Positions 33,438-48,519 of a stretch of 64,000 nucleotides of DNA are shown here, piece by piece. The notes under the pieces were generated by a model. That model was not told the DNA's origin, searched no databases, and worked only from the letters and a program-made list of their open reading frames with translations. This DNA is from Hyphomicrobium sp. CS1BSMeth3 (GTDB taxonomy: Bacteria; Pseudomonadota; Alphaproteobacteria; Rhizobiales; Hyphomicrobiaceae). The DNA lies in contig NZ_FPEI01000004.1 in the NCBI RefSeq assembly GCF_900117415.1, positions 372,001 to 436,000 of the forward strand, given 5' to 3'. Position numbers and translations under genes: made by a program. Each line of letters begins with the position of its first letter. Positions within the stretch are counted from its first letter, which is position 1.

Positions 33438-34058
33438 TCAGGCGTCATAGGAACCGCACCAGCCCGGCAAGTAGCGCGCCGCGAGCGTGCGGGCCACCAT
33501 TTGCGCCTGGGTGAGAGCCTTTTCCATATCCTTGTCGAGGAGCGCAGCGTCGATATGCCGGCGCAGGAAATCCGCCCACAGGAATTCCACGAACGGCGTC
33601 TCGACCTTGGCGAAGCCGCCGGTGCGGCGCAATTCCCCCGCCAGGGAGCGGAACGGATCGTCGGCCAGCCCCTCGAGGGATTTCGGGATATGCTTATAGG
33701 TCCTGCGCCGTCCGTCCGCGTCGAAAGGATGCAGCCAGCCCAGATTGTCCATGGCCGCCCAGAACGCGTCCTTCTCCAGATGATGGAGATCGGCCACCAT
33801 GCGGGTCAGGACATGCGGGACGCCTTCCAGATGGAGCGCGAGTGCCAGGTGATGGTTGTCGATGAGATAGGGTCTGCCGGAGGGGCCGGTCACGACAGGC
33901 AGCATATGGCGACCGAGAAAGGAAGCCTCCCGCTGTATATCCTCTTGGCGCCATTCCGCCCGCTTGCGCTCGACCTCCCGCATGCCGACCGTGATCTGGG
34001 TGGGACGCAAATCGGTTACCTGTATGGGCATGAGTAGCGGTGCGGGCGCGACGCTCAT
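33438..34058 (-). CDS. ParB-like nuclease-family protein (ParBc_2 type), coupled to SulP
   Basis: A 206-residue soluble protein. The N-terminal part (about 10-90) matches the putative ParB-like nuclease family, with the YLIDNHHLALALHLEGV core (DxHH). No helix-turn-helix or partition partner is visible, so it is not a chromosome-segregation ParB. The start overlaps the SulP gene by 4 bp (ATGA), a sign of translational coupling. Function is unknown; the pairing suggests a role connected with anion uptake or its signalling (inference). Confidence 0.8.
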   Translation of the reverse strand: MSVAPAPLLMPIQVTDLRPTQITVGMREVERKRAEWRQEDIQREASFLGRHMLPVVTGPSGRPYLIDNHHLALALHLEGVPHVLTRMVADLHHLEKDAFWAAMDNLGWLHPFDADGRRRTYKHIPKSLEGLADDPFRSLAGELRRTGGFAKVETPFVEFLWADFLRRHIDAALLDKDMEKALTQAQMVARTLAARYLPGWCGSYDA

Positions 34059-35710
34059 GGCTGGACTCCTCCCTGGCTGATCATGGCGCGGACGGCCTCC
34101 TCGACGCTGTCAGTACGGCCGGTCTCGCCGAGTAGCGCCAGCACGCCCTGCCGCTCGAGCGAGCTTGCCGCGCGCACCGACTGCAGGCGGGCGACGACAA
34201 ACCGGACATTTTCTGCCTGGCAATCGGCGATGACGCGCTGCAGCGTGTCGGCGGCAGTATAGTCGATATCGGCCACAGCGCTGGCCTCGAGGACGACCAG
34301 CTTCAGCCCGCTCCGCCGCTCGGCGATCATGGATTGCATCTGCCGCTCGAAGGTATCGGCATTGGAGAACAGCAAGGGCGCCTGAAAGGCGACGACCAGA
34401 ACTCCCGGAACATGCTCGGCCCGCCGCTCGGCCGCCATCGGCCACCAGATGGTGGTGCCGGGCAGGCGCGCCAGCTCGACGAGCCTGGTATGGGTCGTCA
34501 TCCAGACGCCGTGCAGCAGCGCCATGACGATACCGATGGCCATGCCGGACTGGATGGGCAGAGCCACGATGGCCAGCACCGTCAGCATGGACAACAGCGC
34601 TTCAGACGGGCTGCGACGCATGATGTTGGCCAGGGTGCGGAAACGGAAGATGCGCGCGGCGACAAACAGCAGTACGCCGGCAAGCGCCGCCTCCGGAATC
34701 GCCCCCAGCAGCGCGCCGCCCCACAGGACCAACGCGGTGACCAGCCCCGCGGCGACGAGCGGCCCCAATTGCGAAGTCACGCCGGCCTCGATCGCGACCG
34801 CCGTGCGGGGCGGGCTGGCATTAACCGGGAAGGCTCCCAGCACCGCCGCAGCCAAATTGCCGGCGCCGAGGCCGATGAAATCGGCATTGGTGTCGGCCGC
34901 ACTGTCCTTGGCGAAGCCGCGATCGACGGCGGAGACCTGCATCATGATGACGAGGACCAGCAGCAATGCCAGGGGAATGAGATGCGGCAGGACCGCAAGG
35001 GGCGGAAGCGCGATCGAGAGCGGCAGGCTGGAAACCGCTCCGAGGGTGGCGACGCCGAGGCGTTCGGGACCATACGCCCAGGCGATGGCCGTTGCTGCCG
35101 CGACCCCGATCAGCGCGCCGGGAATGCGGCCATCGATCCGCTCAGCCAGGAGGATGGCTCCGAGCGTGCCCAGACCGAGGAGGAGCGTATAGGGATTGAG
35201 GCTGGGAAGGGCCTCGACGATGGCGAGCAAGCGGGCCGGAATGTTGGTCGGCGTCACGTCCACCCCCAGCACCGCGGGGAGCTGCGAGGCGACGATATGA
35301 ACCGCGATGCCCGCCAGAAAGCCGGTGACCACAGGGGTCGACAGGAGGCTGGCGACGAAGCCGAGCCGGAGCAGGCCGGCCAGAAGGAGCAGAATGCCGA
35401 CGAGAACCGCGAGCACGACGGCGCTGCCGCCCGGATCGGCCTGATAGGCTGTGGCGAGACCGGCCAGCGTCAGCGCGAAGATCGGCGTGATGGTCGAATC
35501 CGCCCCGCCGGTCAGCACGCGGCTGCGTCCGAAGACGGCGAGGCCGATCGTGGCGCCGATAAAAGCATAGAAGCCGACCTGCGGCGCGAAGCCGCCCAGC
35601 TTTGCCGTCGCCATCTGCTCAGGAACAGTGATGGCGGCAAGCGTCGCCCCGCCCAGAATGTCGGGCCAGGCCTGCCGAAATGTCCACCCTTTCAGCCCAT
35701 CGAACAGCAT
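34055..35710 (-). CDS. SulP family inorganic anion transporter with STAS domain
   Basis: A 551-residue inner-membrane protein. It has about ten to twelve spans in residues 15-410, including the SulP motifs AAITVPEQMATAKLGG and GGADSTITPIFALTLAG, then a cytoplasmic STAS domain (about 435-545) with DIDYTAADTLQRV. The family moves sulfate, bicarbonate or other anions; the proline-rich variation does not reveal which. It is the first gene of a two-gene unit with the ParB-like protein. Confidence 0.9.
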   Translation of the reverse strand: MLFDGLKGWTFRQAWPDILGGATLAAITVPEQMATAKLGGFAPQVGFYAFIGATIGLAVFGRSRVLTGGADSTITPIFALTLAGLATAYQADPGGSAVVLAVLVGILLLLAGLLRLGFVASLLSTPVVTGFLAGIAVHIVASQLPAVLGVDVTPTNIPARLLAIVEALPSLNPYTLLLGLGTLGAILLAERIDGRIPGALIGVAAATAIAWAYGPERLGVATLGAVSSLPLSIALPPLAVLPHLIPLALLLVLVIMMQVSAVDRGFAKDSAADTNADFIGLGAGNLAAAVLGAFPVNASPPRTAVAIEAGVTSQLGPLVAAGLVTALVLWGGALLGAIPEAALAGVLLFVAARIFRFRTLANIMRRSPSEALLSMLTVLAIVALPIQSGMAIGIVMALLHGVWMTTHTRLVELARLPGTTIWWPMAAERRAEHVPGVLVVAFQAPLLFSNADTFERQMQSMIAERRSGLKLVVLEASAVADIDYTAADTLQRVIADCQAENVRFVVARLQSVRAASSLERQGVLALLGETGRTDSVEEAVRAMISQGGVQP

Positions 35711-36086: not shown

Positions 36087-36902
36087 CTATGCCGTCTCGG
36101 TGCCCCATCGCTGAGTCGTGAGGCGCTGGAGCGCGATGAAAAGGCTTTCCGTCGCGAGACCGATGATGATGACCAGCATGATGCCGGCAAATCCGTCTGC
36201 CACGTTCATGAAAAGCCGACTGTTATTGATGAACCAGCCAATACCGCCGCCGCCGCCCGTCGCGCCAAATACCAGCTCCGCCGCCACAATGGTTCGCCAG
36301 CCAAAGCCCCAGCCGACTTTCAGGCCCGCGATCATCATGGGCAGCGCGGATGGAACCAGGACGGTCGTAACGAGGCTGATGCGGCTGAGCTCATAGTTCT
36401 GACCTAGCCGGACGAGCGTCGGAGAAACCGTTGCAAAGCCGACGGTCAGCGAGGAGGCGATGGGCCAAAGCATGGACATGACAACGACGAAGATCAGCGA
36501 CTCCTGCGAAAAGCCAAACCAAAGGATGGCCATCGGCAGAAGCGCGATCGACGGGAGGGGTTGAAATATGCCGGTCATCACGCTCAGAACTTCGCGCGCC
36601 CATCGGTTTCCAACCGCGAGGCCGGTCATGAAGATCGCGAGGGCGACACTGATGGCGTACGCCTGCAGGAGAACGCGCAGCGTGTCCCAGATATAGCCCC
36701 AAAGCTCGCCCGAGCCACCCAAGCCTAGCCCGGCCGCCAGATGCATCACGACATCGCTGAAGGCGGGAAACAGCAGAGGGTTCACCTGCATGCCGCGGAC
36801 GACGAGCTCCCAAGCCAGGCACAGCCCGGCAACGACGATGGGCTTGCGCAGCTTCTCGATGATCTCAGGAGATACGTTGTGGCCTTCGGCGAGCGCTTTC
36901 AT
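36087..36902 (-). CDS. ABC transporter permease, SsuC/TauC type
   Basis: A 271-residue inner-membrane permease with about six spans. The coupling loop is near residue 170 (LVRLGQNYELSRISLVTTVLVP). It is the last gene of the acyl-CoA carboxylase island and overlaps the ATPase gene by 4 bp. Confidence 0.9.
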   Translation of the reverse strand: MKALAEGHNVSPEIIEKLRKPIVVAGLCLAWELVVRGMQVNPLLFPAFSDVVMHLAAGLGLGGSGELWGYIWDTLRVLLQAYAISVALAIFMTGLAVGNRWAREVLSVMTGIFQPLPSIALLPMAILWFGFSQESLIFVVVMSMLWPIASSLTVGFATVSPTLVRLGQNYELSRISLVTTVLVPSALPMMIAGLKVGWGFGWRTIVAAELVFGATGGGGGIGWFINNSRLFMNVADGFAGIMLVIIIGLATESLFIALQRLTTQRWGTETA

Positions 36903-37726
36903 GACACAGTATTCTCCGTATCCTTGAGCAGCTCGCGCAGCTCAGCCGCAAGAGGCATCGCGTCAGTGTGGAAGAGTGGAGAGCCGACATGCGGATTGTC
37001 GATCAGTGCGCGCACGCGCCCCGGCCCTCGCGACATCACCATGATGCGATCGCCGAGATGAACGGCCTCGTTGACGTCATGAGTGACGAAGATCACGGTC
37101 ATGTCCCGCGCACCTTCCATGAGCATGCGGTTCAGCTCCGCCTGCATGCGCTCCCGATTGATCGCGTCGAGCGCACCGAACGGCTCGTCCATGAGAAGAA
37201 GTGCTGGCGCCACGGCAAACGCGCGCGCAAGGGCGCAGCGCTGCTTCTGTCCGCCCGAGAGCGTGTTCGGATACTGCGGCGACTGCCGATCGAGGCCAAC
37301 GAGCGCGATGCACTCTCGTGCCCTTGCTTGAGCCTCGCTGCGGGACATCTTCGGGAAGCGGCGGCGAATGCCCCACGTCACGTTGCCGAGCACCGTGCGC
37401 CAGGGTAGGAGCTGCCCAAAATCCTGGAACACCATGATGCGGTCCATGGATGGAGAGCCCACAGGCTCCCCATCGATCTTTATGCTCCCCGAGGTCAGGG
37501 GGATGAAGCCCCCGATCGCCGTGAGAAGGGTGGACTTTCCGCAGCCCGAAGGGCCGAGAATGACGAACTTCTCACCCTTTCGGATATCGATCGAAACGCT
37601 ATCCACCGCCAGCGTGGCCGCACGCCCGCGAGTGCTGTAAGCAATCGAGGCATCACGGATCGTCACCAGGGGCTCGCCTGGTGACAGTTGTTCGAAGCGA
37701 GCCGCCCGGTTCGCGGCGGTTGCCAT
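36899..37726 (-). CDS. ABC transporter ATP-binding protein, SsuB/TauB type
   Basis: A 275-residue ATPase with Walker A GPSGCGKSTLL, signature LSGGQKQR and LLLMDEPFGALD. The binding-protein gene ends in TGATG here, so ATG 37726 reuses its stop codon; an ATG two codons earlier (37732) is equally possible. Energises the importer of the island. Confidence 0.9.
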   Translation of the reverse strand: MATAANRAARFEQLSPGEPLVTIRDASIAYSTRGRAATLAVDSVSIDIRKGEKFVILGPSGCGKSTLLTAIGGFIPLTSGSIKIDGEPVGSPSMDRIMVFQDFGQLLPWRTVLGNVTWGIRRRFPKMSRSEAQARARECIALVGLDRQSPQYPNTLSGGQKQRCALARAFAVAPALLLMDEPFGALDAINRERMQAELNRMLMEGARDMTVIFVTHDVNEAVHLGDRIMVMSRGPGRVRALIDNPHVGSPLFHTDAMPLAAELRELLKDTENTVS

Positions 37727-38742
37727 CACCATTTCGTGCCAGCCGTATCCGGGAAAGCGTAGAAGTCAGCAGGCCCCGAGGGTTTACGCTTGATGACGCC
37801 AAGCGCCAGCATGGACTTCGCCTGACCCTGCAGATCCGCATCGGCGACGTACGTATCGTAGATGTCCGACTTCATGTACTTGAGGAAGTCGGCACTCGAC
37901 ACTTTGTTGTCGACCGATTTGCTCATCGCCTCGGCAGCGAGCTGCGGATTGGCCTTCATCCAGGCCGCTGTCTGGCGGAGCGCCTCGGCGTAGCCGCGCG
38001 TTATGGCAGCGTGCTCGTTGATGGTCTTGGTCAGTGCGCAAGCTCCGACCGCATACAGGGCATTGAAAATCTTACGGAACGATGCGATCTGGCGCATGCC
38101 CTGATCGGTGAGGCGCATTGCGAAGTCCGCCGTCGCCCAGTGACCATCGAGCTGCCCTGCAATGAGTGCCTGCATGGCATCGGGATGCGGCAGGTTCACG
38201 AAGTTGCGATCCAGTGCCTTAACGTCCTTGCCGGCGCGGTGCAGCAGTTCCTGCGCGGCAAAGTATTGGGCCGTATTGGGGCCCGGCGACAGCTTCTTGC
38301 TCGTGCCGATGAATTCGAGGATGTCCTTTGGGCCATCCGGCCGCACCATGAGATAGCCGTCGAATCCCGAGGTGACCTGGACCCACTTCCAGTCGACGCC
38401 TTTGTCCCACGACTGGAGATAAGGCCCTGGAGTGCACGACCCGAAGTGGAGGCGACCAGCGAGCATGGCATCACGCTGCTGCGCCGTGGTGAAGATGTTC
38501 TGCCACTCGATCTTGGCATTCGGAAATTTCTTTTCCATGACGCCAAGGACACGCGTGATCGGCATCGGCGCGTATATCAGGCCAAAGCCATGGGCGAACT
38601 TGTAGTCGCCAGTGACGGATGGGTCGGGGGTGACGCTGTAGCCTTCGGCGATGGTCACCTGCTGCGCGCTCACACTGCCGAGCGCGGCGCTGAGCGCCAA
38701 AGCCTGCATGGTCAGACCAATGGTCCTGACTATCCTACGCAT
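37726..38742 (-). CDS. ABC transporter substrate-binding protein, NMT1-like
   Basis: A 338-residue periplasmic protein with a Sec signal peptide (about 1-26, cleaved after SVSA). The mature part contains the NMT1-like IEWQNIFTTAQQRDAMLAG and GSCTPGPYLQSWDKG blocks. It lies in one operon with a biotin-dependent carboxylase and CoA-transferases, so the ligand is probably an organic acid or a sulfonated or nitrogenous precursor of one (inference). Confidence 0.88.
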   Translation of the reverse strand: MRRIVRTIGLTMQALALSAALGSVSAQQVTIAEGYSVTPDPSVTGDYKFAHGFGLIYAPMPITRVLGVMEKKFPNAKIEWQNIFTTAQQRDAMLAGRLHFGSCTPGPYLQSWDKGVDWKWVQVTSGFDGYLMVRPDGPKDILEFIGTSKKLSPGPNTAQYFAAQELLHRAGKDVKALDRNFVNLPHPDAMQALIAGQLDGHWATADFAMRLTDQGMRQIASFRKIFNALYAVGACALTKTINEHAAITRGYAEALRQTAAWMKANPQLAAEAMSKSVDNKVSSADFLKYMKSDIYDTYVADADLQGQAKSMLALGVIKRKPSGPADFYAFPDTAGTKW

Positions 38743-38783
38743 GTTTCCTCCTTTTATGACTCTGTTTGTTATAGTCCCCGCTG

Positions 38784-40202
38784 TCAGCGTCGTAGCTTCG
38801 CTTCCTTCAGAGCGCTCCAGAGGCCATCGGTCGGCTTTCCGGGCTGCATATTCTTGATCGCCGCATCGAGCCGATCAGCGCTCGACTCGCTGATGGCGAA
38901 GATCACGTTGTCACGGAACTTGGCGTTTACTCCCGCCTCTCCCATCGGGAGTTTGGCCGAGCCAAGATTGTGCGGCACCGATGCTTCGTGCACGCTTCCG
39001 TCTGTCAGACGGACGCGCACCAGCGCCGGAAATGTTTCCGGAAACTCGGCGAAGGGGCGCGCGCGATAACTGACCTTACCTGCAATGCGGGCGACCTCGG
39101 GATCGGTGATGTTCTCCGGGAGGAAGCTCTTGACTCCGAGCTTGCCATCCAAGGCCGCGCGCGCGACGCAGAACTGCGCACTGAAGCGCCCCTCATAGGC
39201 ATTTCGGGCCGCGACCTTCTGCACCGACGGCTCGAAAACGAGGTCGACGTACCACTGCGGCACCTCGCAGTGGATGTCCTCCACCATATCGAGGCGATCG
39301 AATACGCCGCGCGCGCGCAGATTGATCGTGCCCTGAACCATGGGGTGCACGCACAGACATGCGGGATACGGCTTAGGTGCCATCTCCTCGACCTCGAAGC
39401 GCGAACCGTCGAAGGAGAGGACCGCCTCTGGATCTATGTCGAGACGCGCATAGGCCTTGAAGACGCCGAACCTTCCTTCGAGCACTGTTGCCGGGCCGCT
39501 CAATCCGGCGCGCGCGAGTTGGACCGCGCGAATGCCAGCCTGTGCGGCCCAGCCAGGATGCATCTGCTTCACGTCAGTGCCGTCGGAGAGATACTCCATG
39601 AGGCCAGAGGCCATGCTTCCGGCAATGCCCATCGCATTGCGCGCGACGGAGGCATTCACCTTGAGAAGGCGGGCAGCAATAAAAGTCGACGCGAACACGC
39701 CGAGCACGGCCGTTGACTGGAAGCCGTGATCCTGGAATGGACCAGCGCCGAGACGGCCAAGGCGGGCCGATACCTCGTAGCCGAGAATGGCAGCCGAGAG
39801 GATCTCGCTCGCGGGAGCCTTGATGGCCTCGCCGATGGCCAGGGCAACCGGAATATTGACCGTGCTCGAATGCATGATCGCCGCGGGATGCGTATCATCG
39901 AAGTCGAGTGCGTGAGCCAGCATGCCGTTGGCGAGCGCGGCGTCGACACGGCTGGCACTGAAGCCGCCGCCCCACACGGTGGATTCGGCAGGGCCACCGG
40001 CCTCTGCGGCGACGCGCAGGCCGGACGTGCCGACGCCGAACGCTCCGCCAGCCAGCGCAACACCAATCGTGTCCTTCATGCAAAGCTGGACGGCGCGGAC
40101 TGCCGACTGCGGAATTCGCTCTGCCGGATAGTCCAGGAATAGTGCGAGCAACCGCTCGGAAAAAGACGCCTCGCGCGTGGCAGCCGTTTTGATCTCGCTC
40201 AT
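38784..40202 (-). CDS. MmgE/PrpD family protein (hydro-lyase or isomerase), not the prp-operon PrpD
   Basis: A 472-residue MmgE/PrpD-fold protein. The helical N-terminal domain carries DFDDTHPAAIMHSSTVNIPVAL near residue 100. It is shorter than and clearly different from the 502-residue PrpD at 7009. The fold includes 2-methylcitrate dehydratase, iminodisuccinate epimerase and itaconate-related enzymes, so the reaction is open. The gene lies between the carboxyltransferase and the importer genes on the same strand, with 35- and 41-bp gaps, suggesting it acts on the carboxylated or imported acid. Confidence 0.87.
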   Translation of the reverse strand: MSEIKTAATREASFSERLLALFLDYPAERIPQSAVRAVQLCMKDTIGVALAGGAFGVGTSGLRVAAEAGGPAESTVWGGGFSASRVDAALANGMLAHALDFDDTHPAAIMHSSTVNIPVALAIGEAIKAPASEILSAAILGYEVSARLGRLGAGPFQDHGFQSTAVLGVFASTFIAARLLKVNASVARNAMGIAGSMASGLMEYLSDGTDVKQMHPGWAAQAGIRAVQLARAGLSGPATVLEGRFGVFKAYARLDIDPEAVLSFDGSRFEVEEMAPKPYPACLCVHPMVQGTINLRARGVFDRLDMVEDIHCEVPQWYVDLVFEPSVQKVAARNAYEGRFSAQFCVARAALDGKLGVKSFLPENITDPEVARIAGKVSYRARPFAEFPETFPALVRVRLTDGSVHEASVPHNLGSAKLPMGEAGVNAKFRDNVIFAISESSADRLDAAIKNMQPGKPTDGLWSALKEAKLRR

Positions 40203-40237
40203 CGTAGGACTCCAAAATCGAAGTCGGCCCTACCCGC

Positions 40238-41806
40238 TCATGGGCGCACGCCTGATTGGAACTTCGGACCGAGTGTCGTCTTGAGGCGGCTCTCGGCGGC
40301 CGCCAATACGCGGCAGAGATAAGCGCGGGTCTCGCGCGGATCGATCATGTCCTCGACGGCAAATGCCTCGGCCATGCGGAAAGGCGACGCCAAGGCGCGC
40401 AACTCGTCCTCGATCTCGACTTGCCGTGCTGCGGGATCTTCCGCAGATTCGATCTCGCGCCGGAATGCGGCTCGCACGCCGCCTTCAACGGGAAGATTGC
40501 CGATCTCCGCCGAAGGCCAGGCGACCTTGAAATTGAGGCCGGCTTTGTCGCAGGCGGCCATGCCTGCCATGCCGTAGCACTTGCGAATGACGACCGTGAC
40601 GATGGGAACGGTGGCCTTGGCGCCGACGTACACGGCGCGCATGCCTTCCCGGAGTGTGCCTGCCATCTCGGCCTGCGGCCCGACCATGAATCCAGGCTGG
40701 TCCACGAGGAACACGATCGGGATATGGAACGTGTCGCACAGCTCAGTGAAATGGATCTGCTTGCGTGCTGCCTTGTGATCCATGGCGCCGCCATAGATCA
40801 TCGGATTGTTGGCGATCACGCCAACGGGCCGGCCATCGAGACGCGCGAGCGATGTGATGACCGACTTGCCGAAGGTGGGCTGCAGTTCGAACGCGGAGCC
40901 GCGATCGACGATCAGCTCGATGACGCGCCGCATGTTGTAGGGCGTGCGCCGATGCTTCGGCACGATGCCGAGAAGCTCCTCGTCGCCCCGCTCCACCGGA
41001 TCGTCGCACGCGTGCCTCGGTGGCAGCTCCCAAACATTCTGCGGCATGAAGCTGAGGAAGCGGCGCACCATCTCGAGCGCTTCCTGCTCGCTCTCGGCGA
41101 CATTGTCGATCGTGCCGCCGCCGTCGACGGCGATCTTGGCCCCACCAAGTTCCTCGCGGGAAAGCTTGATCCCCATCGACCGCTCGACGACCGGCGGCCC
41201 AGCAGCGAAGATCTGGCTTGTTCCCTTCACCATGACGGAGAAGTGCGAAAGCACGGCGCGCCCCGCGGGACCTCCGGCAGCAACGCCCATCACGGCGCTG
41301 GCAACCGGGACGATGCCGAGCAGCTCGACAGAACGCTCGAAGCCGTGAACGCCCGGAAACACAGCATGACCGCGCCGCTTGATCGAGGCCACGCTCCCGC
41401 CGGCGCCATCGATGAGATTGACGAGCGGAATGCGATAGTTGAAGGCCAGGTCCTCGATGAACCCGCCCTGCCCTCCTTTTCGCCGCTCGGAGCCCCAACT
41501 CGCGCCGCCGCGAATTGTGAAGTCCTCGCCGCCGAGAGCGACGTCGCGCCCGTCGATCCGCGCAAGTCCCATGATGTAGGGTGCCGGCTGTACGCGCTGC
41601 ACCTTCCCGCTGTCATAACGCCCTTGGCCGGTGAGCGCCGAAATCTCCTGGAAGCTTCCCTCGTCGACGAGCGTCGAAATGCGCTCGCGAATGGTCGAGC
41701 GGCCAGCCGCGTGATGGGCCGCAACGGCTTCGGGGCCGCCATGCTCCTCCGCCCAGCGGCGGCGCTGGTGGATCTCTTCCGTTTCGGAGCGCCAGCTATC
41801 GGACAT
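40238..41806 (-). CDS. Acyl-CoA carboxylase carboxyltransferase (beta) subunit, first paralogue
   Basis: A 522-residue PccB/MccB-type carboxyltransferase with both crotonase-like halves: an N-terminal acyl-CoA half (GGEDFTIRGGASWGS, NLIDGAGGSVAS) and a C-terminal carboxybiotin half (IANNPMIYGGAMDHKAARKQ, VDQPGFMVGPQAE, GMAGMAAC). It transfers CO2 from carboxybiotin to an acyl-CoA. A second, divergent carboxyltransferase is encoded four genes upstream (43396-44937), unusual in one operon. The acyl substrate is not predictable. Confidence 0.9.
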   Translation of the reverse strand: MSDSWRSETEEIHQRRRWAEEHGGPEAVAAHHAAGRSTIRERISTLVDEGSFQEISALTGQGRYDSGKVQRVQPAPYIMGLARIDGRDVALGGEDFTIRGGASWGSERRKGGQGGFIEDLAFNYRIPLVNLIDGAGGSVASIKRRGHAVFPGVHGFERSVELLGIVPVASAVMGVAAGGPAGRAVLSHFSVMVKGTSQIFAAGPPVVERSMGIKLSREELGGAKIAVDGGGTIDNVAESEQEALEMVRRFLSFMPQNVWELPPRHACDDPVERGDEELLGIVPKHRRTPYNMRRVIELIVDRGSAFELQPTFGKSVITSLARLDGRPVGVIANNPMIYGGAMDHKAARKQIHFTELCDTFHIPIVFLVDQPGFMVGPQAEMAGTLREGMRAVYVGAKATVPIVTVVIRKCYGMAGMAACDKAGLNFKVAWPSAEIGNLPVEGGVRAAFRREIESAEDPAARQVEIEDELRALASPFRMAEAFAVEDMIDPRETRAYLCRVLAAAESRLKTTLGPKFQSGVRP

Positions 41807-41811
41807 GAGGC

Positions 41812-42033
41812 CTACACCTCCACGATGGCGACGGTCTGCCCCTCGTTGACCGCCTCGCCTTCCTTGACCAGGATCTCGGTGACCTTCCCGCCGTCGATCG
41901 CAAGGACGGGAATCTCCATCTTCATCGACTCGAGAATGATCACCGGCTCGTCGACGCCGACTACGTCACCCGGCTTGACCAGGATCTTCCACACTGCGCC
42001 GGTGATCTCGGATTTGACTTCGGTCTTTGCCAT
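41812..42033 (-). CDS. Biotin carboxyl carrier protein, minimal biotinyl domain
   Basis: A 73-residue protein that is only a biotinyl/lipoyl domain. Biotin attaches to Lys38 in ESMKMEIP. This free-standing minimal carrier lacks the N-terminal extension of the housekeeping AccB. It lies 5 bp before the carboxyltransferase gene and 9 bp after the biotin carboxylase gene and shuttles CO2 between them. Confidence 0.92.
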   Translation of the reverse strand: MAKTEVKSEITGAVWKILVKPGDVVGVDEPVIILESMKMEIPVLAIDGGKVTEILVKEGEAVNEGQTVAIVEV

Positions 42034-42042
42034 GATGCTTCC

Positions 42043-43386
42043 TCAAGTGGCCTGTGCTTCGGCAAGGAGGCCGGTGTGTACGGCACCTGCGCGGAATGGC
42101 TCGTGACGCAGAATTCGGAGCAACGCGGGAATGTTCGATTTCAGTCCTTCGACCGTGAACGCTTCCAGCGCTGCTTCGAGGCGGGCTATGGCTTCGTTGC
42201 GGGTCGCACCGCGCGCGATCACCTTCGCGAGGAGCGGATCGTAGTTGGGTGTTACGGTTCCACCTTCGGCATAGCCGGTCTCGACGCGAATGCCTTCTCC
42301 TCGGGGCGGGCGGAATGTCTTTAGCGGCCCGGGCGAAGGAAAGAAGCGGACCGGATCCTCCGCATATACGCGCGCCTGAATGGCGTGCCCCGACGGCTCG
42401 ATGGCTGCAGGCAGGAAAGTATCGAGCGCTTCGCCTGCAGCCGAACGGATCTGAGCCTCGACGAGATCGATGCCTGTCACTTCCTCCGTCACGCCATGCT
42501 CGACCTGCAGGCGTGTGTTCATCTCCAGGAAGCTGAACGACCCGTCGTCGCCCATCAGCATCTCGATGGTGCCGATGTTGTCGTAGCCTATAGCCGCCAT
42601 CATCTCGGCGACGCGCTCGCAGAGGGCAGTGACCTTCTCGCGCGGCATGCCGGGAGCCGTGGCCTCCTCGATGACTTTCTGATGGCGTCGCTGGACGGAG
42701 CAGTCGCGCTCGAAGATATGGCGAACGCGTCCGTGGCGATCACCGAGCACCTGGATTTCGATATGGCGCGGCCGCTCGATCAGGCGCTCGAGATAGACCT
42801 CGCCATTGCCGAAACCGCGCATGGCCATGGACTGTGCCTGCGTAACGGCAGCAGCAAGCTGCTTGGCATCCCGCGCCGCAATCATGCCGATGCCACCGCC
42901 GCCCGCGGCGGGCTTGACGAGCACCGGATAACCAATCCGTTCCGCTGCGGCAGCAACGGCAGCCTCATCGGCAGGGAGCACGCCGGAGCCGGCGTTCATG
43001 GGCATACCGTGGCCCATCATGAGCTCCCGGGCCCGCGTCTTATGCCCCATCGCATCGATAAGACCCGCATTCGGCCCAATGAACGCAATGCCGGCTTCGT
43101 GGACCTGCCGCGCGAATGCGGCATTCTCGGAAAGAAAGCCATAGCCGGGGTGTATTGCGTCGACGCCGAGCTTGCGTGCGAGTTCGACGATCTTCTTGCC
43201 GTCGAGATAGCTCTCGCGTGCTGGGCCGGGCCCGATGCAGTGCGCTTCGCCTGCGCGTGCAAGGTAGGGCGCGCCGGCGTCCGCCTCAGAGTAGACCGCG
43301 ATGGACGCAACGCCCATCTTGTCCAGCGTGCGAAGCACCCTGGCGGCAACGGCACTGCGATTGGCAACGAGTACCTTCTTGAACAT
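42043..43386 (-). CDS. Biotin carboxylase subunit of acyl-CoA carboxylase
   Basis: A 447-residue AccC-like ATP-grasp enzyme that makes carboxybiotin. It has MFKKVLVANRSAVAARVLR at the start, the glycine-rich KPAAGGGGIGM, the active-site ERDCSVQRRHQKVIEEA and FLEMNTRLQVEHGVTE. Length fits a biotin carboxylase without the fused carrier found in PccA/MccA alpha subunits, which agrees with the separate 73-residue carrier. Confidence 0.92.
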   Translation of the reverse strand: MFKKVLVANRSAVAARVLRTLDKMGVASIAVYSEADAGAPYLARAGEAHCIGPGPARESYLDGKKIVELARKLGVDAIHPGYGFLSENAAFARQVHEAGIAFIGPNAGLIDAMGHKTRARELMMGHGMPMNAGSGVLPADEAAVAAAAERIGYPVLVKPAAGGGGIGMIAARDAKQLAAAVTQAQSMAMRGFGNGEVYLERLIERPRHIEIQVLGDRHGRVRHIFERDCSVQRRHQKVIEEATAPGMPREKVTALCERVAEMMAAIGYDNIGTIEMLMGDDGSFSFLEMNTRLQVEHGVTEEVTGIDLVEAQIRSAAGEALDTFLPAAIEPSGHAIQARVYAEDPVRFFPSPGPLKTFRPPRGEGIRVETGYAEGGTVTPNYDPLLAKVIARGATRNEAIARLEAALEAFTVEGLKSNIPALLRILRHEPFRAGAVHTGLLAEAQAT

Positions 43387-43395
43387 GCTTCCCGC

Positions 43396-44937
43396 CTAGC
43401 TGCTCGTCGGCCAGGCCCGCATGAGATGCTGGCCAATTCCATTGCTGAGGCGGAGCTGATGCACGTCCAGCAGACGAATGAGGTGATCGCGCGTCTCCTG
43501 CGGCTGGATCACGTGCTGCACGCCATACATCGAGGCAATGCCCCAGACCTCGTTCTCCTTCTCCATCTCCGCCAGCTTCTCTTCGAAGCCCGGATCGCCG
43601 CGCCGCAAGCCATGAACCACAGTTACGGCGAACGCGGGTGTCATGAAGCTGACCTCCGCCGTCGGCCACGCAGCAACCTCGTCGGAGTTTCGACCGCCGC
43701 CCATATTCAGATACGCTTGGCCGTAGGTCTTCCGGATGATCACGGAGATCTTCGGTACCGTCACGAGCTGCAGGGCATTCATGAAGTTGACGATCTTGCC
43801 GGTGGCCCGGCGCTTCTCCGCCTCGGCGCCGATCAGGAAGCCTGGTGTGTCGACCAGCATCACGATGGGGATGTTGAACGAGTCACAAAGGACCAGGAAA
43901 TCGATGATCTTGTCGCAAGCATCCGTATCGAGCGTGCCGCCCTTGACCATCGGATTGTTGGCGATGATGCCGACCACGCGCCCTGCAAGGCGACCGAGCG
44001 CTGTCACGGCGACGCGGCCGAAGCGCGCCTTCATCTCGAAATAGCTGTCGTTGTCTACGATGCGCTGGATGATCTTGCGCATGTCGTAGACCTGAGTCCG
44101 GCTCGCCGGCAGGAGATCCTGGATGGTGCGCATCCCCTCGCCCGAACCTGCCGGCGTCGGCCTTACGGGTGGCATTTCCTTATGATGGGTCGGCATGTAG
44201 CTCAGGAATTTGCGTAGCGCATCGAGCGCTTCCTCATCCGTATCGACGACCATGTCGACCATGCCGGTCGTCTCGGCGTGGATGCGCCAGCCACCAAGGT
44301 CCTCAGGACTGAGCTTCTCTCCCGTGGCCAGCTCGATCAGCCCGGGACTGGAGACCGCCATCACCGCGCCCTTGCGTATGACGCTGAAGTCCGAGCAGCA
44401 GTTGTAAAGAAACGACGAGCCGTAGCAGTATCCGAGAATTGCGGAGACCCATGGCGTCTCTCGCATTCGCTGATACTGCGTCGGATCATTGCCGAGCATG
44501 GTACCCATGCCGCGCGAGCCCTGATTGTCCGGCAGGCGGGCCCCCGAAGATTCGCCGAGCCAGACCATCGGCAGGCCGCGCATCGCGGCGATGCGGCGCA
44601 TCTGCCCGATCTTGCGCATATTCGTGAGGCTGCTCGATGCGCCCTTCACCGTAAAGTCGTTCGAGATCACCGCAACTTCGCGGCCATCAATGCGCGCATA
44701 GCCGGCGATCTTTCCGTCGGCAGGTGTGGTGGCTTCGTCACCAGGCATGATCGATCGCCCGAACAAACCGGACTCGTAGAAGCTGCCGGGATCGATCAAT
44801 CGATCGATGCGGCTGCGCGCATCGAGGACGCCCTTCTCGGCGCGCGCGCGAAGTTTCGCCTCTCCGCCCATGGCGAGAGCGGCGCGGCGGCGCTCCTCGA
44901 AATCGTTCAGAGGCTGCTCTTTCTTTTCCGTGGTCAT
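43396..44937 (-). CDS. Acyl-CoA carboxylase carboxyltransferase (beta) subunit, second paralogue
   Basis: A 513-residue full-length carboxyltransferase, clearly diverged from the one at 40238. It has YGSSFLYNCCSDFSVI, the carboxybiotin half with IANNPMVKGGTLDTDACDKI and VDTPGFLIGAEAEKR, and a C-terminal KENEVWGIASMYGVQHVIQP tail. The 4-bp overlap with the CaiB gene upstream and the 9-bp gap to the carboxylase put it inside the operon. Either the two paralogues form a heteromeric carboxyltransferase or they serve two acyl-CoAs (both inference). Confidence 0.9.
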   Translation of the reverse strand: MTTEKKEQPLNDFEERRRAALAMGGEAKLRARAEKGVLDARSRIDRLIDPGSFYESGLFGRSIMPGDEATTPADGKIAGYARIDGREVAVISNDFTVKGASSSLTNMRKIGQMRRIAAMRGLPMVWLGESSGARLPDNQGSRGMGTMLGNDPTQYQRMRETPWVSAILGYCYGSSFLYNCCSDFSVIRKGAVMAVSSPGLIELATGEKLSPEDLGGWRIHAETTGMVDMVVDTDEEALDALRKFLSYMPTHHKEMPPVRPTPAGSGEGMRTIQDLLPASRTQVYDMRKIIQRIVDNDSYFEMKARFGRVAVTALGRLAGRVVGIIANNPMVKGGTLDTDACDKIIDFLVLCDSFNIPIVMLVDTPGFLIGAEAEKRRATGKIVNFMNALQLVTVPKISVIIRKTYGQAYLNMGGGRNSDEVAAWPTAEVSFMTPAFAVTVVHGLRRGDPGFEEKLAEMEKENEVWGIASMYGVQHVIQPQETRDHLIRLLDVHQLRLSNGIGQHLMRAWPTSS

Positions 44938-46178
44938 GCGTGTCTTCTCGCCTCGGAGCTGGAGTCTGCGTGGCTGCAGCGGACGATGCCCTGCTGCTCG
45001 AGTTTCGCAATGTCAGCCTCGGAGAGACCGCATCTCTGCTGCAAAATTTCGCGCGTGCTTGAACCAACGCGGCCGCCGGCGTGCGCTATGCGGCCGGGCG
45101 TCTCAGAAAGCTTAGGCGTGACGCCCATCAGCGTGACTGCGCCAAGCTCCGCGTCCGGCACGTCGACCAGCATTTCCCGTGCGCGGAAATGTGGATCCTT
45201 GAAGATATCGGAAACGTCATAGATCCGCGAAGCAGGCACCGAGGCACCGCGCAGCGTTGCCTCCACGGTGTCGAGATCATTCGCCTCCGTCCACGCGGAT
45301 ATTATCGCGTCGAGCTCGGCTTCGTTCTCGTTCCGGTGAATTGTCTTGTCGAAGCGCTTGTCGGCGGCCAGCTCCGGCCGGCCCATCGCCTGTGCAAGGC
45401 GCGCAAACACACTATCGGCCATCGCGGTGATGTGGATGTGCCGCCCGTCCCTGGTCGCATAGAGATTGTTCGGCGCCGAACCCGGCAGCCGTGATCCTTC
45501 GCGCTGCGCGACGATACCGAGCGCACCAAACACGGGCACATGCGGCTCGATCATGCTGAAGGCGGAATCGCAGAGCGCCGCATCAATGCATTGCCCGCGT
45601 CCAGTCGCCGCGCGCGCCTGCAAAGCCAACACTGCACCGAAGGCTGCGTACAGCCCCGTAATCTCATCGGTCAGCGAAGTATTGATGCGGCCCGGCGGAC
45701 GATCGGGATCACCCGTCAGGTGGCGCAACCCGCTCATAGCCTCGGCGACGACACCGTACCCAGCGCGTGCGCGATGGGGGCCTGTTTGGCCGAAGCCCGT
45801 GATGCGCACCATGATCAAGCGCGGATTGAGCGCGCTCAACACATCGTAGCCGAGACCCCAATCCTCGAGCGTGCCGGGCTTGAAGTTCTCGATCAGGATG
45901 TCGCTTCCAGCAGCTAGCTGCTTGACAAGCTGACGACCGGTCTCCTGACGCAGATCGAGAGCCAGCAGACGCTTGTTGCGAAAGATGCTCGCTGCATAGA
46001 GCGAGCGATCGCCAACGCGGCGGCTCATCGAACGAACGACATCACCTTCTGGCGGTTCGATCTTGATGACTTCGGCGCCGAAGTCGGCGAGCAGGCGACC
46101 GCAAAATGGACCGGCAACGCTGGAACCAACCTCAAGCACGCGCAGACCCGCGAGCGGACCTCGTCCCAAATCCACCAT
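44934..46178 (-). CDS. CaiB/BaiF (family III) CoA-transferase, first gene of the carboxylase operon
   Basis: A 414-residue family III CoA-transferase. The N-terminus has VGSSVAGPFCGRLLADFGAEVIKIEPP and the probable catalytic Asp lies in SLTDEITGLYAAF. ATG 46178 was chosen because GAGGAA lies 5 bp upstream. It would transfer CoA from an acyl-CoA donor to the imported acid, preparing it for carboxylation (inference). The long palindrome-bearing leader upstream suggests the operon promoter is here. It overlaps the following carboxyltransferase gene by 4 bp. Confidence 0.9.
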   Translation of the reverse strand: MVDLGRGPLAGLRVLEVGSSVAGPFCGRLLADFGAEVIKIEPPEGDVVRSMSRRVGDRSLYAASIFRNKRLLALDLRQETGRQLVKQLAAGSDILIENFKPGTLEDWGLGYDVLSALNPRLIMVRITGFGQTGPHRARAGYGVVAEAMSGLRHLTGDPDRPPGRINTSLTDEITGLYAAFGAVLALQARAATGRGQCIDAALCDSAFSMIEPHVPVFGALGIVAQREGSRLPGSAPNNLYATRDGRHIHITAMADSVFARLAQAMGRPELAADKRFDKTIHRNENEAELDAIISAWTEANDLDTVEATLRGASVPASRIYDVSDIFKDPHFRAREMLVDVPDAELGAVTLMGVTPKLSETPGRIAHAGGRVGSSTREILQQRCGLSEADIAKLEQQGIVRCSHADSSSEARRHA

Positions 46179-46243
46179 GGCGTTCCTCAAAAGGCTCATC
46201 GGCCTCGTTCTTGTTGAGGGCAATGTTCCGTCTTGGCGATAAT

Positions 46244-46288
46244 ATTGTCAACAATCTTCGCGCCTCTTCTGTTGCGCGTTGTGCAACA
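46244..46288. promoter_or_regulatory. Palindromes upstream of the CoA-transferase/carboxylase operon
   Basis: ATTGT-CA-ACAAT (46244-46255) is a perfect 12-bp palindrome with a 2-bp centre, 66 bp before ATG 46178. A second inverted repeat, TGTTGC (46270-46275) and GCAACA (46283-46288), follows. FCD-type GntR regulators often bind ATTGTnnACAAT-like sites, so the upstream GntR protein is the natural candidate (inference). Confidence 0.5.
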
Positions 46289-46437
46289 TGAGATCCGAGC
46301 GCAGTACGGGATTGATAGGCAAGCGAGTTTTCGCGAGCGCTCGGCCGATCGAGAGCAGCTCTCGGCCAAAGATGGTCCGATCGCCGTTCCGCTAGCCGGA
46401 ACGGCGGTCTTGGTGGATCGCAACGGATCTTGTTGGA

Positions 46438-47583
46438 CTAGACGACGTCTCTCTCGCGCAGTCTCGCGATCTCGTCGTCGTTGAGACCGAATTCGGCTAG
46501 GATCTCATTCGTATCCTGACCGGGCGCTGGTGCCGCGCGCTCGACGCGACACGTGAAGTCGCTCATCTTCACCGGAAATGCAAAGCTCGTCGCGCCGGCA
46601 TCGTCCTTCATTACTGTGCCGCGAGCAACGAACTGCGGATGTTCCAGGGCCTCGGCGAGCGTGAGGACCGGCTCGGCACATGCCTCGCTTGCCGCGAGGC
46701 GCTTTTGCCAATAGGCGAACGGTTGGCGAGCGAATGCTGCTTCCAGAGCCAAGCGGACAGGGGCACCCGGTGTGCCCACGGCAGCGTGCTGATCCTTGAG
46801 GTCGGGGCGCTCGATGATGTCGCACAGAGCATCCCAGAATGGCTTTTCCTGCGTAGCCACCGAGATGAAGCGGCCGTCAGAGGTGGCATAGAGGCCGTAG
46901 CGCGCATTGCCACCTGTGTGTGTTCCGCAGCCGCGACCGCGCGGCGTTGCGCCTTCATTGTATGACGCGAGCGCAAGAACGTTATGCGCCAGGACACCAT
47001 CCGACATGGAGACATCGACAAAACGGCCCTGCCCGGTGCGCTGCGCGTCGACGATGGCCGCCAGAATTCCCACGGTAGCTGTCAATGTGCCGCCCAGAAT
47101 ATCTCCGAGCAAAAAGCTCGACAGCGCCGGGGGCGCATCCGGATTGCCGGTCTCATCGACGATGCCGGCAAGACTGCAGTAGTTGAGGTCGTGGCCGGGC
47201 ACGTCGCGATAGGGACCATCCTGGCCGTAACCGGTGATGGCGCAGTAGACCAGTCGAGCATTCTCGGATGCCAGCGCGTCATAGCCCACGCCAAGCCTCG
47301 CCATGACGCCAGGACGAAATCCTTCGACGACAACGTCGGCCGCGCGAGCCATCCGCTTGAAAAGCTCAACACCTTCGGGTTTTTTTAGATCCAAGCAGAG
47401 CGCGCGCTTGTTCCGATTCACCAGATTGCGGATCGCCGGACGAACGTAATCGCCGCGTCCTTGGTCCTCAATCTTGATGACGTCCGCACCGAGATCCCCG
47501 AGATGCTGGGCACAGAGAGGGCCCGGCAGCAGACGCGTCAAATCAAGAACGCGAAGTCCCGACAACGGCTTGGGTCGCGCCAT
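46438..47583 (-). CDS. CaiB/BaiF CoA-transferase (alpha-methylacyl-CoA racemase-like)
   Basis: A 381-residue family III protein. It opens GLRVLDLTRLLPGPLCAQHLG, the pattern of the alpha-methylacyl-CoA racemase (AMACR)-like branch, with probable catalytic Asp in FLLGDILGGTL and DVSMSDGVLAHN. It might racemise or CoA-transfer a 2-methyl acyl-CoA. It lies 12 bp after the GntR gene and forms a two-gene unit with it, separated from the main carboxylase operon by 260 bp. Confidence 0.9.
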   Translation of the reverse strand: MARPKPLSGLRVLDLTRLLPGPLCAQHLGDLGADVIKIEDQGRGDYVRPAIRNLVNRNKRALCLDLKKPEGVELFKRMARAADVVVEGFRPGVMARLGVGYDALASENARLVYCAITGYGQDGPYRDVPGHDLNYCSLAGIVDETGNPDAPPALSSFLLGDILGGTLTATVGILAAIVDAQRTGQGRFVDVSMSDGVLAHNVLALASYNEGATPRGRGCGTHTGGNARYGLYATSDGRFISVATQEKPFWDALCDIIERPDLKDQHAAVGTPGAPVRLALEAAFARQPFAYWQKRLAASEACAEPVLTLAEALEHPQFVARGTVMKDDAGATSFAFPVKMSDFTCRVERAAPAPGQDTNEILAEFGLNDDEIARLRERDVV

Positions 47584-47595
47584 GGCAACAGCGTC

Positions 47596-48315
47596 CTAAA
47601 ATACGAAGTGCTTGTAGCGCTGAAGATCCTGAATAGCGCTGCGTATGTTCGCGCGCTTGAGGCGCTCGGCTTCGGCGGCATCTCCTCGGCGCATTGCTGC
47701 CAGGACCTGACGGTGCTCCTTCAGTCCTTTTTCCGCGCGGCCGGGAAGTATCATGACGCGGCGCATGATCACGCGCGTCTTCTCGTAGATACTGTCCAGC
47801 ATTCCACTCAGGACTTGGTTTTGTGCGGCATCGATAATGCGCCTGCGCATCTCGGCATATGCCTGTGCGTAAGTCTCGATATCGCGCTTCTGAAGCAGAT
47901 CGTCCATCGGCTTGCCGAAGGAGCGGACCAGATCCTCCCAGCTCTCGGGCGGTGAATTCTCGGTCGCAAGCCTTACGCAAAGTCCTTCAAGAACTTCGCG
48001 GACATCATAAATTGCAAAGACTTGCGCAATGTCGAAGCGAGTGACGATGGCGCCGCGATTGGGAATCCGTTCGACCAGTCCGCGCATCTCGAGCGCGCCG
48101 AGTACTTCGCGGATGCGGGCCCGCGAAACGCCAAACTCGCTGCTCAGCTCCTGTTCGAGCAGCTTCGCGCCCGGGGGAATCGAATGCGAAGCGATCCGCT
48201 CTCGCAGCGCCTCTTCGACCCCATCACCATTCCGGCGCCCGCGGCCCTGCAACTGTGCAGGCTCGGAGGTCTTGGAGCGCCGGGCGCCCGTCGCCGCTCG
48301 ACTGGACTTTGCCAT
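47596..48315 (-). CDS. GntR family transcriptional regulator (FCD domain)
   Basis: A 239-residue FadR/FCD-type regulator. The N-terminal winged helix (about 30-95) has FGVSRARIREVLGALEMRGLVERI and the helical FCD effector domain follows (about 100-235). ATG 48315 was chosen over the earlier in-frame methionine at 48462, whose upstream codons look non-coding. As the first gene of the island it probably controls the CaiB and carboxylase units; palindromes of GntR type lie before both. Confidence 0.87.
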   Translation of the reverse strand: MAKSSRAATGARRSKTSEPAQLQGRGRRNGDGVEEALRERIASHSIPPGAKLLEQELSSEFGVSRARIREVLGALEMRGLVERIPNRGAIVTRFDIAQVFAIYDVREVLEGLCVRLATENSPPESWEDLVRSFGKPMDDLLQKRDIETYAQAYAEMRRRIIDAAQNQVLSGMLDSIYEKTRVIMRRVMILPGRAEKGLKEHRQVLAAMRRGDAAEAERLKRANIRSAIQDLQRYKHFVF

Positions 48316-48519
48316 AGCGTGTAACTGCCGTTCTCTGCTCAACACTGCGCAATATACAAACTCAACGAGATTGGCGACACAATTGTTGAGCCGCCAATGC
48401 GGAAGGTCGCTGAAAATAGCGCTAGGGACGTTAACGGCTGCTATCGGGCGCCATCTGCGCATTGTTGGGCGCGTCGATACAGCTAACGCATAGCAACTTC
48501 CGCTTCATCTCTCTGAGGC

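Follow-up and report, generated by a model that had tools for sequence, protein, structure and literature searches.

What reaction is carried out by a block of genes that encodes an importer, a family III CoA-transferase and a biotin-dependent carboxylase with two different carboxyltransferases? We analyzed such a block in a window of 64,000 nt from Hyphomicrobium sp. CS1BSMeth3 (genome of 6.02 Mb in six contigs; contig NZ_FPEI01000004.1, positions 372,001-436,000; gene coordinates are in window numbering). We found that a GntR-type regulator, the CoA-transferase, both carboxyltransferases (CT1 and CT2) and a small biotin carboxyl carrier protein (BCCP), often together with a biotin carboxylase (BC), are a conserved unit. 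We lean toward a function in which an organic acid, most likely a short branched or unsaturated dicarboxylate, would be imported, joined to CoA by CoA transfer, and then carboxylated in a biotin-dependent reaction by CT1 and CT2.

Gene layout and conservation of the core

The cluster contains the following features, listed in order of transcription from gntR to the permease gene.

47596..48462, minus strand: GntR/FCD-family regulator (PF00392, 56.1 bits; PF07729, 81.6 bits)
46438..47583, minus strand: AMACR-like CaiB/BaiF protein (2-methylacyl-CoA racemase-like), accessory (PF02515, 339 bits)
46245..46254, minus strand: candidate GntR operator TTGTTGACAA, 45 bp upstream of the likely CoA-transferase ATG at 46199
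44934..46223, minus strand: family III CoA-transferase, core (PF02515, 401 bits)
43396..44937, minus strand: carboxyltransferase CT1, core (PF01039, 319 bits)
42043..43386, minus strand: BC, often but not always in the cluster (three biotin-carboxylase Pfam domains)
41812..42033, minus strand: BCCP, 73 residues (ESMKME motif)
40238..41806, minus strand: carboxyltransferase CT2, core, query for the locus search (PF01039, 342 bits)
38784..40202, minus strand: MmgE/PrpD-family protein, accessory (PF03972, 205 bits; PF19305, 101 bits)
37726..38742, minus strand: periplasmic binding protein, SsuA/TauA/NMT1 fold (SsuA_fam below cut-off; predicted fold)
36899..37732, minus strand: ABC importer ATPase (PF00005, 102 bits)
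36087..36902, minus strand: ABC importer permease (PF00528, 56.9 bits)

Genes were called from a list of open reading frames, Pfam and NCBIfam profile scans, and reading of the intergenic sequence. All of the genes named in an earlier note on this DNA were present, with the same coordinates and strand; the GntR/FCD regulator lies outside the stretch given by that note. The nine genes from the CoA-transferase through the permease (46223-36087) are probably one operon, because three adjacent pairs overlap and the remaining gaps are at most 41 bp. A gap of 12 bp separates the AMACR-like gene from gntR, against ~215 bp between it and the CoA-transferase gene, so it may share a separate transcription unit with gntR. 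The CoA-transferase open reading frame opens with TTG at 46223, and the ATG at 46199 is the likelier start. A carboxyltransferase, a BC and a biotin carrier with an MKM motif are encoded together, as expected broadly of biotin-dependent acyl-CoA carboxylases, and the carboxylase is split, with BC and the carrier as separate proteins.

We searched genome contigs with CT2, found 193 relatives, and kept the best 80 loci, in which CT2 is present by construction; the search favors closer relatives and many of the contigs are from metagenome-assembled genomes (MAGs). BC and the other cluster genes were mapped in these loci by tblastn. Forty-five loci were well flanked, with over 5 kb of sequence to either side of CT2. 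Of these, 41 have CT1, 40 the CoA-transferase and 38 BCCP. A GntR homologue at least 40% identical was found in 35, and BC in 26 at 40% identity or more (19 at 50% or more). That is, the conserved unit is GntR, CoA-transferase, CT1, BCCP and CT2, often with BC. The core stayed together across records whose titles name Beta-, Alpha- and Gammaproteobacteria, with differences in gene order and transporter; in L083, L090 and L099, CT1 and CT2 are on opposite strands. This constant content with varying order argues for a common function of the core. CT1 was not found nearby in four of the well-flanked loci (L057, L066, L070 and L106).

The earlier note had treated the two carboxyltransferases as parts of one carboxylase and had named a lack of joint conservation of the gene set as grounds for rejecting its reading. 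Such a lack was seen for the accessory genes and not for the core, and the pair held up. The idea of one conserved pathway did not extend to the accessory genes: orthologues of the AMACR-like protein (at least 50% identical) and of the MmgE/PrpD protein (at least 45%) were each found in one of the 45 well-flanked loci and in two of the 80 (L033 and L080 in both cases).

The module is also found on plasmids. Six plasmid records, with Cupriavidus and Variovorax among the hosts, encode CT2 at 60% identity or more, and five of the six encode CT1. On plasmid 4 of Variovorax sp. SRS16, CT2 and a CT1 are ~98 kb apart, and that CT1 adjoins a CT2-like partner. Related modules recur on one plasmid in Variovorax SRS16 and PBL-E5 (L131, L132 and L140); one of these pairs CT1 with a CT2-like protein and another adjoins UxaA, Ldh-type and hydroxyacid dehydrogenase genes. 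The biotin-synthesis genes bioA-F-D-B lie beside the module on Cupriavidus sp. P-10 pMTS3 (L138, 17460-21939). A BioB-like gene was found in 5 of 97 loci (the one scanned has BATS and Radical_SAM domains). Also near the module are bioF on the EM10 plasmid (L134, 22888-24114) and a BioY transporter gene in Sulfitobacter (L133, 15059-15613). Four loci (L046, L052, L055 and L077) are on contigs titled MAG: Bordetella parapertussis, a species label that looks doubtful.

Within the order of the host we surveyed 199 genomes, drawn evenly, with seven candidates scored per genome where there were many. CT1 (E ≤ 1e-110, 53-100% identity) was found in six and CT2 (at least 64%) in four. In all four CT2-positive genomes, the host included, CT1 shared the contig and strand of CT2, at a distance of 0.3-1.6 kb. 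Another 15 genomes had only CT2-like proteins (43-48% identity). Of the 60 closest relatives, seven (host included) have CT1 at 58% identity or more, one of them as a partial match.

The carboxyltransferases CT1 and CT2

Both carboxyltransferases are full length and they are 35% identical to each other, which bears out the earlier description of a split carboxylase with two full-length paralogues. By sequence, their nearest solved relatives are beta subunits of propionyl-CoA carboxylase (PCC; 288 bits for CT1 and 310 bits for CT2). Scores against 3-methylcrotonyl-CoA carboxylase (MCC) and geranyl-CoA carboxylase (GCC) were lower (at most 174 and 154 bits for CT1; at most 196 and 168 bits for CT2); that is, neither protein is closest to MCC or GCC. 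In both, the PCC loop GGAYDVM is replaced, by GQAYLNM in CT1 and GMAGMAA in CT2, and its Asp, which we take from work on PccB to be the specificity residue of PCC, is absent. Another carboxyltransferase of the host genome (L111) retains the loop GGAYDVM. CT1 has the motifs GESSGAR and GQAYLNMGG, and CT2 has DGAGGSV, GGPAGRA and RKCYGMAGM. Loops that we take to be of the oxyanion type are present in both, so neither carboxyltransferase looks dead, and in neither is an active-site loop obviously disrupted.

A quick maximum-likelihood tree (74 sequences) set off CT1 and CT2 as one clade each by a single branch (SH-aLRT 100 and 98, respectively), apart from 20 sequences that grouped with the PCC-type L111 and from one MCC-like sequence. 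The tree had long branches, and its PCC-type sequences were from the host order and not named references; we do not trust its deeper joins. By this tree, CT1 and CT2 each have a clade of their own, outside the PCC-type carboxyltransferases of the host order.

Arg183 of CT2, in GGPAGRA, is invariant in an alignment of 81 sequences. A structure model of CT2 was set aside (mean pLDDT 73.5, with active-site loops below 50). We therefore placed Arg183 by its loop position, which suggests that it points into the acyl pocket.

Pairwise distances of CT1 and CT2 were correlated at 0.86 (56 loci) and 0.89 (47 loci), higher than for any other pair compared over the same loci; correlations of either one with the CoA-transferase were 0.80-0.84. 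This co-variation, slightly above that of other core pairs, is weakly suggestive of a physical pair, and it is plausible that CT1 and CT2 form a mixed complex, as the earlier note had raised. The host has a second CT2-like carboxyltransferase (G000:C1:504162-505706; L115, L118), 47% identical to CT2, and no CT1 match was found in the 19 kb around its gene.

Activating and accessory enzymes, importers and a candidate operator

The two PF02515 proteins are 30% identical. The Asp of the LTDEITG loop of the CoA-transferase, presumably the catalytic residue of family III CoA-transferases, is invariant in an alignment of 60 sequences, and the closest structures in the PDB are 4ed9, YfdE, SUGCT and benzylsuccinate CoA-transferase. 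The other protein best matched MCR/AMACR in the PDB (205 bits, versus at most 168 bits for CoA-transferases). Its loops GHDLNY and GDILGG correspond in the alignment to GHDINY and GDFGGG of MCR, and it retains the His and Asp that we assume to be the catalytic His126 and Asp156 of MCR. These features point to the AMACR-like assignment made before.

The MmgE/PrpD protein does not appear to be a PrpD (40.3 of 950 bits and 22.5 of 575 bits against the PrpD equivalogs), as had been noted. Its nearest relative in the PDB is iminodisuccinate (IDS) epimerase (148 bits), followed by Irg1-type proteins. Members of the family from C. necator, P. aeruginosa and Pa. xenovorans isomerise methylsuccinate, the C. 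necator enzyme acting on the free acid and not the CoA ester, and the known substrates have a common 1,4-dicarboxylate C4 backbone, according to parts of PMC12290011 (2025). The hydro-lyase role suggested by the earlier note is thus not established. Of the 80 loci, L033 and L080 were the only ones with orthologues (50-53% identity), and relatives at 20% or more, those two included, were found in four; orthology rests on two loci. The window, L033 and L080 proteins all keep equivalents of H85, D88, H99, K198 and K266 of IDS epimerase, and all have Phe at the position of the second catalytic base (Tyr) and Gln at H150 (residues as listed in part of PMC12290011; Tyr position placed from our alignment). 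Because the five residues are kept and Phe and Gln replace Tyr and H150, the protein likely acts on a 1,4-dicarboxylate. There is no support for a two-base isomerase, and its reaction may use one base. The host genome has 12 matches to the MmgE/PrpD family, including this one.

Other loci have other helpers. Counts over 97 loci are by similarity to one query each, only some of the queries were scanned against Pfam or NCBIfam, and the names of a few neighbor genes around CT1-only and CT2-like loci were read by eye. An AcnA-type aconitase gene is beside the core in 4 of the 80 loci (L035, L052, L084 and L094); in L084 and L052 it separates CT1 from CT2. The aconitases of these two loci score 1201 and 1214 bits, respectively, against AcnA (cut-off 945) and 801 and 818 of 1420 bits against AcnD. 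Matches to the AcnA model number 6 in the genome of L084, 2 in that of L035, 6 in that of L052 and 5 in that of L094 (of these last, three are below the cut-off), so the cluster aconitase is not the sole copy, and with so many copies its substrate may differ from citrate. All six in each of the L084 and L052 genomes (G230 and G232) are above the model cut-off, more than housekeeping seems to need.

A gene for a PrpB-like lyase is directly before CT2 in L035, L063 and L094 (288 of 354 bits for the L035 protein), and a FAS1_DH-type hydratase is found in 10 of 97 loci (one was scanned). Also present are UxaA-type genes (4/97), an Xsc-like thiamine diphosphate (ThDP) enzyme (4/97; 428 of 620 bits against the sulfoacetaldehyde acetyltransferase model), TauE/SafE-like proteins (9/97), and Ldh-type and hydroxyacid dehydrogenases on Variovorax plasmids. 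In Sulfitobacter (L133), the partners of CT1 are a CitE-like lyase (175 of 443 bits), a MaoC-type hydratase, a protein of the acetate--CoA ligase family and a biotin transporter. Hydroxylated or unsaturated di- and tricarboxylates are substrates of several of these enzyme families. The AcnA, PrpB-like and FAS1_DH-type genes, each in a minority of the loci, hint at di- or tricarboxylate chemistry.

The importer is more variable than the core. The binding protein of the window reached no Pfam cut-off (nearest, PF12974, 25.4 of 27 bits) and had no match in the PDB by sequence. It scored 57.5 bits against the SsuA_fam profile (cut-off 163.5), and its AlphaFold model (mean pLDDT 85.7) best matched SsuA and TauA in Foldseek, at 14-16% identity. 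This sub-cut-off match and predicted fold suggest an NMT1-type binding protein with an SsuA/TauA fold. The importers of related loci include SsuA/NMT1-type ABC systems, a tripartite tricarboxylate transporter (TTT) receptor (TctC, 242 bits), a TAXI-type receptor (PF16868, 146 bits) with a TRAP-like permease, and an MFS-like carrier (L031/L037, read by eye). Membrane proteins of 433-465 residues adjoin the module in L095 (15645-17042), L109 (14252-15604) and L033 (15723-17024); those of L095 and L109 matched no Pfam family at E 0.001, and the L095 protein as query labelled proteins in 9 of 97 loci. An SsuA/TauA-like fold is also found in carriers of other ligands (thiamine, pyrroloquinoline quinone). 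A sulfonate substrate was considered and set aside as less likely, without being rejected: the fold is shared in this way, the Xsc-like enzyme falls short of the sulfoacetaldehyde acetyltransferase model, and the TauE/SafE-like, UxaA-type, Xsc-like and dehydrogenase genes are each in a minority of the loci.

A candidate GntR operator, TTGTYRACAA, is common to the window and some relatives. With at most one mismatch, the motif was found upstream of gntR or the CoA-transferase gene in 15 of 65 loci, the window included (1.9 in shuffled sequences), and exact copies, as in the window, were found in six (0.1 in shuffles). Upstream of CT1 or CT2, as a control, it was found in 4 of 79 (2.1 in shuffles). 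The shuffles were of single bases, 20 per region, and two of the loci, L072 and L081, are near-copies. The site was not found in 50 of the 65 loci within the stretch searched. Because a -35-like TTGACA lies within the motif, some of the signal may come from promoters. The GntR pattern TNGTNNNACNA showed no clear enrichment in the window, with 9 copies against an expected 5.2 (a count of 9 was reached in 6 of 100 shuffles), and a promoter and terminator scan gave no more sites than in shuffles.

Two neighbors of the cluster are a SulP-family permease gene with a STAS domain (34055-35710, minus strand), ~380 bp downstream of the operon on the same strand, and a sulfatase-family open reading frame (49795-50724, minus strand) that matches only the second half of the sulfatase profile and is possibly a truncated gene.

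Possible reactions and comparison with known systems

Import, CoA activation and biotin-dependent carboxylation, as the earlier note had them, are supported by the protein families and their context and could proceed as follows. The ABC importer would bring in an organic acid, and the CoA-transferase would form its CoA ester from a cellular donor, for example succinyl-CoA. BC would carboxylate biotin on the small BCCP, and CT1 and CT2, probably as a mixed complex, would move the carboxyl group to the acyl-CoA. The product would then join central metabolism through lineage-specific enzymes: here the MmgE/PrpD enzyme and the AMACR-like epimerase, and in relatives AcnA, a PrpB-like lyase or a FAS1_DH-type hydratase. 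Several observations weigh against this pathway. BC had no match at 40% or more in 19 of the 45 well-flanked loci and BCCP was absent from seven; L033 is among these loci and L080 likewise has none, and these two are the loci closest to the window in gene content. On Cupriavidus sp. P-10 pMTS3 no CT1 was found at E ≤ 1e-100, the core being otherwise present, and two of the six order genomes with CT1 (G066 and G160) lack a CT2 match at the cut-off. In addition, none of the ten proteins scanned (all but BCCP) reached an NCBIfam equivalog cut-off among the matches listed, so NCBIfam names no substrate for the core. The hydratases and lyases found in a minority of loci may mark different substrates, and the same protein families can run as decarboxylases.

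A different reaction would run in the decarboxylating or transcarboxylating direction: an imported malonate-type acid would be turned into its CoA ester, one carboxyltransferase would move the carboxyl group to biotin, and the other would hand it to an acceptor. Two carboxyltransferases and one small BCCP resemble the plan of transcarboxylase (12S/5S/1.3S), and BC is missing more often than BCCP, which is present in 38 of the 45 loci. We regard this as doubtful. In the window BC lies between CT1 and BCCP, a BC at least 50% identical is found in 19 of the 45 loci, and a housekeeping BC could serve the loci that have none. The host genome lacks the OAD_beta (PF03977) subunit of membrane decarboxylases; in relatives, where two scanned membrane proteins matched no Pfam family, such a subunit is conceivable. 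Another reading, and a real possibility although not the one we would choose, is that each of the two carboxyltransferases forms a homomeric enzyme of its own, with BC and BCCP in common and with acyl-CoA substrates that are either successive or alternative; it overlaps the pathway above. The intact loops of both proteins, their separation onto opposite strands in three loci, and their occurrence apart would all fit. CT1 without a nearby CT2 adjoins acyl-CoA ligases of the Succ_CoA_lig/ATP-grasp type in L119 and L120 and the acetate--CoA ligase family protein in L133, and CT2-like relatives (41-49%) are found without a nearby CT1 in L118, L121, L129 and L135-L137. Against this stand their joint presence in 41 of 45 loci, their slightly higher co-variation, and a precedent for a mixed complex, the reciprocal interaction of AccD4 and AccD5 described for mycobacteria in part of PMC4347857.

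It is unlikely that the module is a redundant or repurposed PCC or MCC for ordinary short acids. The nearest solved structures are indeed PCC beta subunits, but both proteins lack the PCC Asp and fall in separate clades, and the host has other full-length carboxyltransferases, one with the PCC-type GGAYDVM and one with MCC-like loops (which we call PCC and MCC from their motifs; neither reached an equivalog cut-off). A more specific idea is that CT1 and CT2 carboxylate the methyl group of a mesaconyl- or itaconyl-type CoA to give aconityl-CoA, so that C5 branched dicarboxylates would enter the tricarboxylic acid cycle as C6 tricarboxylates. This would explain why AcnA, PrpB-like, PrpD-type and FAS1_DH-type hydratase genes occur in one or another form of the cluster, and the invariant Arg183 of CT2. 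Nevertheless, we give it little credence. Both carboxyltransferases are nearer to PCC, which carboxylates the alpha position, than to the vinylogous MCC and GCC, and itaconate already has a route that is free of carboxylation. A full-text search of the open literature found no paper on aconityl-CoA or on a carboxylase of mesaconyl-, itaconyl- or glutaconyl-CoA.

Carboxylation after CoA transfer is the function that we favor. The gene set was not described in the titles or abstracts found by our searches of the open literature, consistent with the earlier statement that it matches no recognised pathway: the parts are of known kinds and the combination appears to be new. What emerges is a widespread cassette of a CoA-transferase and two carboxyltransferases, with exchangeable importers, on chromosomes and on Cupriavidus and Variovorax plasmids. 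If the pair is one enzyme, carboxylases with mixed carboxyltransferases, known from lipid synthesis in mycobacteria, would extend to acid catabolism in proteobacteria. Knowledge of the substrate of the cassette would assign a role to many proteins annotated only as "carboxyl transferase domain-containing protein" or "CoA transferase".

Four known systems are similar in part. The 2-methylcitrate cycle (PrpD/AcnD/PrpB) shares an MmgE/PrpD protein with the module here and AcnA and PrpB-like lyases with some relatives. However, the MmgE/PrpD protein scores far below PrpD, the aconitase of two relatives is AcnA and not AcnD, and PrpC is not among the operon genes. The itaconate/methylsuccinate cluster of Cupriavidus necator and pseudomonads likewise combines a CoA-transferase with an MmgE/PrpD protein that acts on a dicarboxylate with a branched C4 backbone, and in C. 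necator a TTT binding protein is close by, as given in parts of PMC12290011. That cluster also has an acyl-CoA dehydrogenase, an itaconyl-CoA hydratase and a citramalyl-CoA lyase. None of the three is among the nine genes of the operon (the hydratase and the lyase were sought in the operon only), which has a biotin carboxylase instead.

The mycobacterial AccD4/AccD5/AccA3/AccE system is, like the module, a biotin-dependent acyl-CoA carboxylase with two carboxyltransferase paralogues. The module differs in that BC and BCCP are separate proteins and in its link to a CoA-transferase. The similarity is modest (255 and 250 bits for CT1 and 232 and 277 bits for CT2 against chains D4a and D5a of PDB 9t97, which we take from the chain names to be AccD4 and AccD5), and ACC_epsilon (PF13822) was not matched in the host genome, a weak test in that the model exceeds its cut-off in only 1 of 14 control genomes. 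Propionyl-CoA carboxylase shares with the module a PF01039 carboxyltransferase, a BC and a biotin carrier, and provides the nearest solved structures. In contrast to that enzyme, the module has two carboxyltransferases that lack the specificity Asp and fall in clades of their own, a split-off BCCP, and a CoA-transferase as partner.

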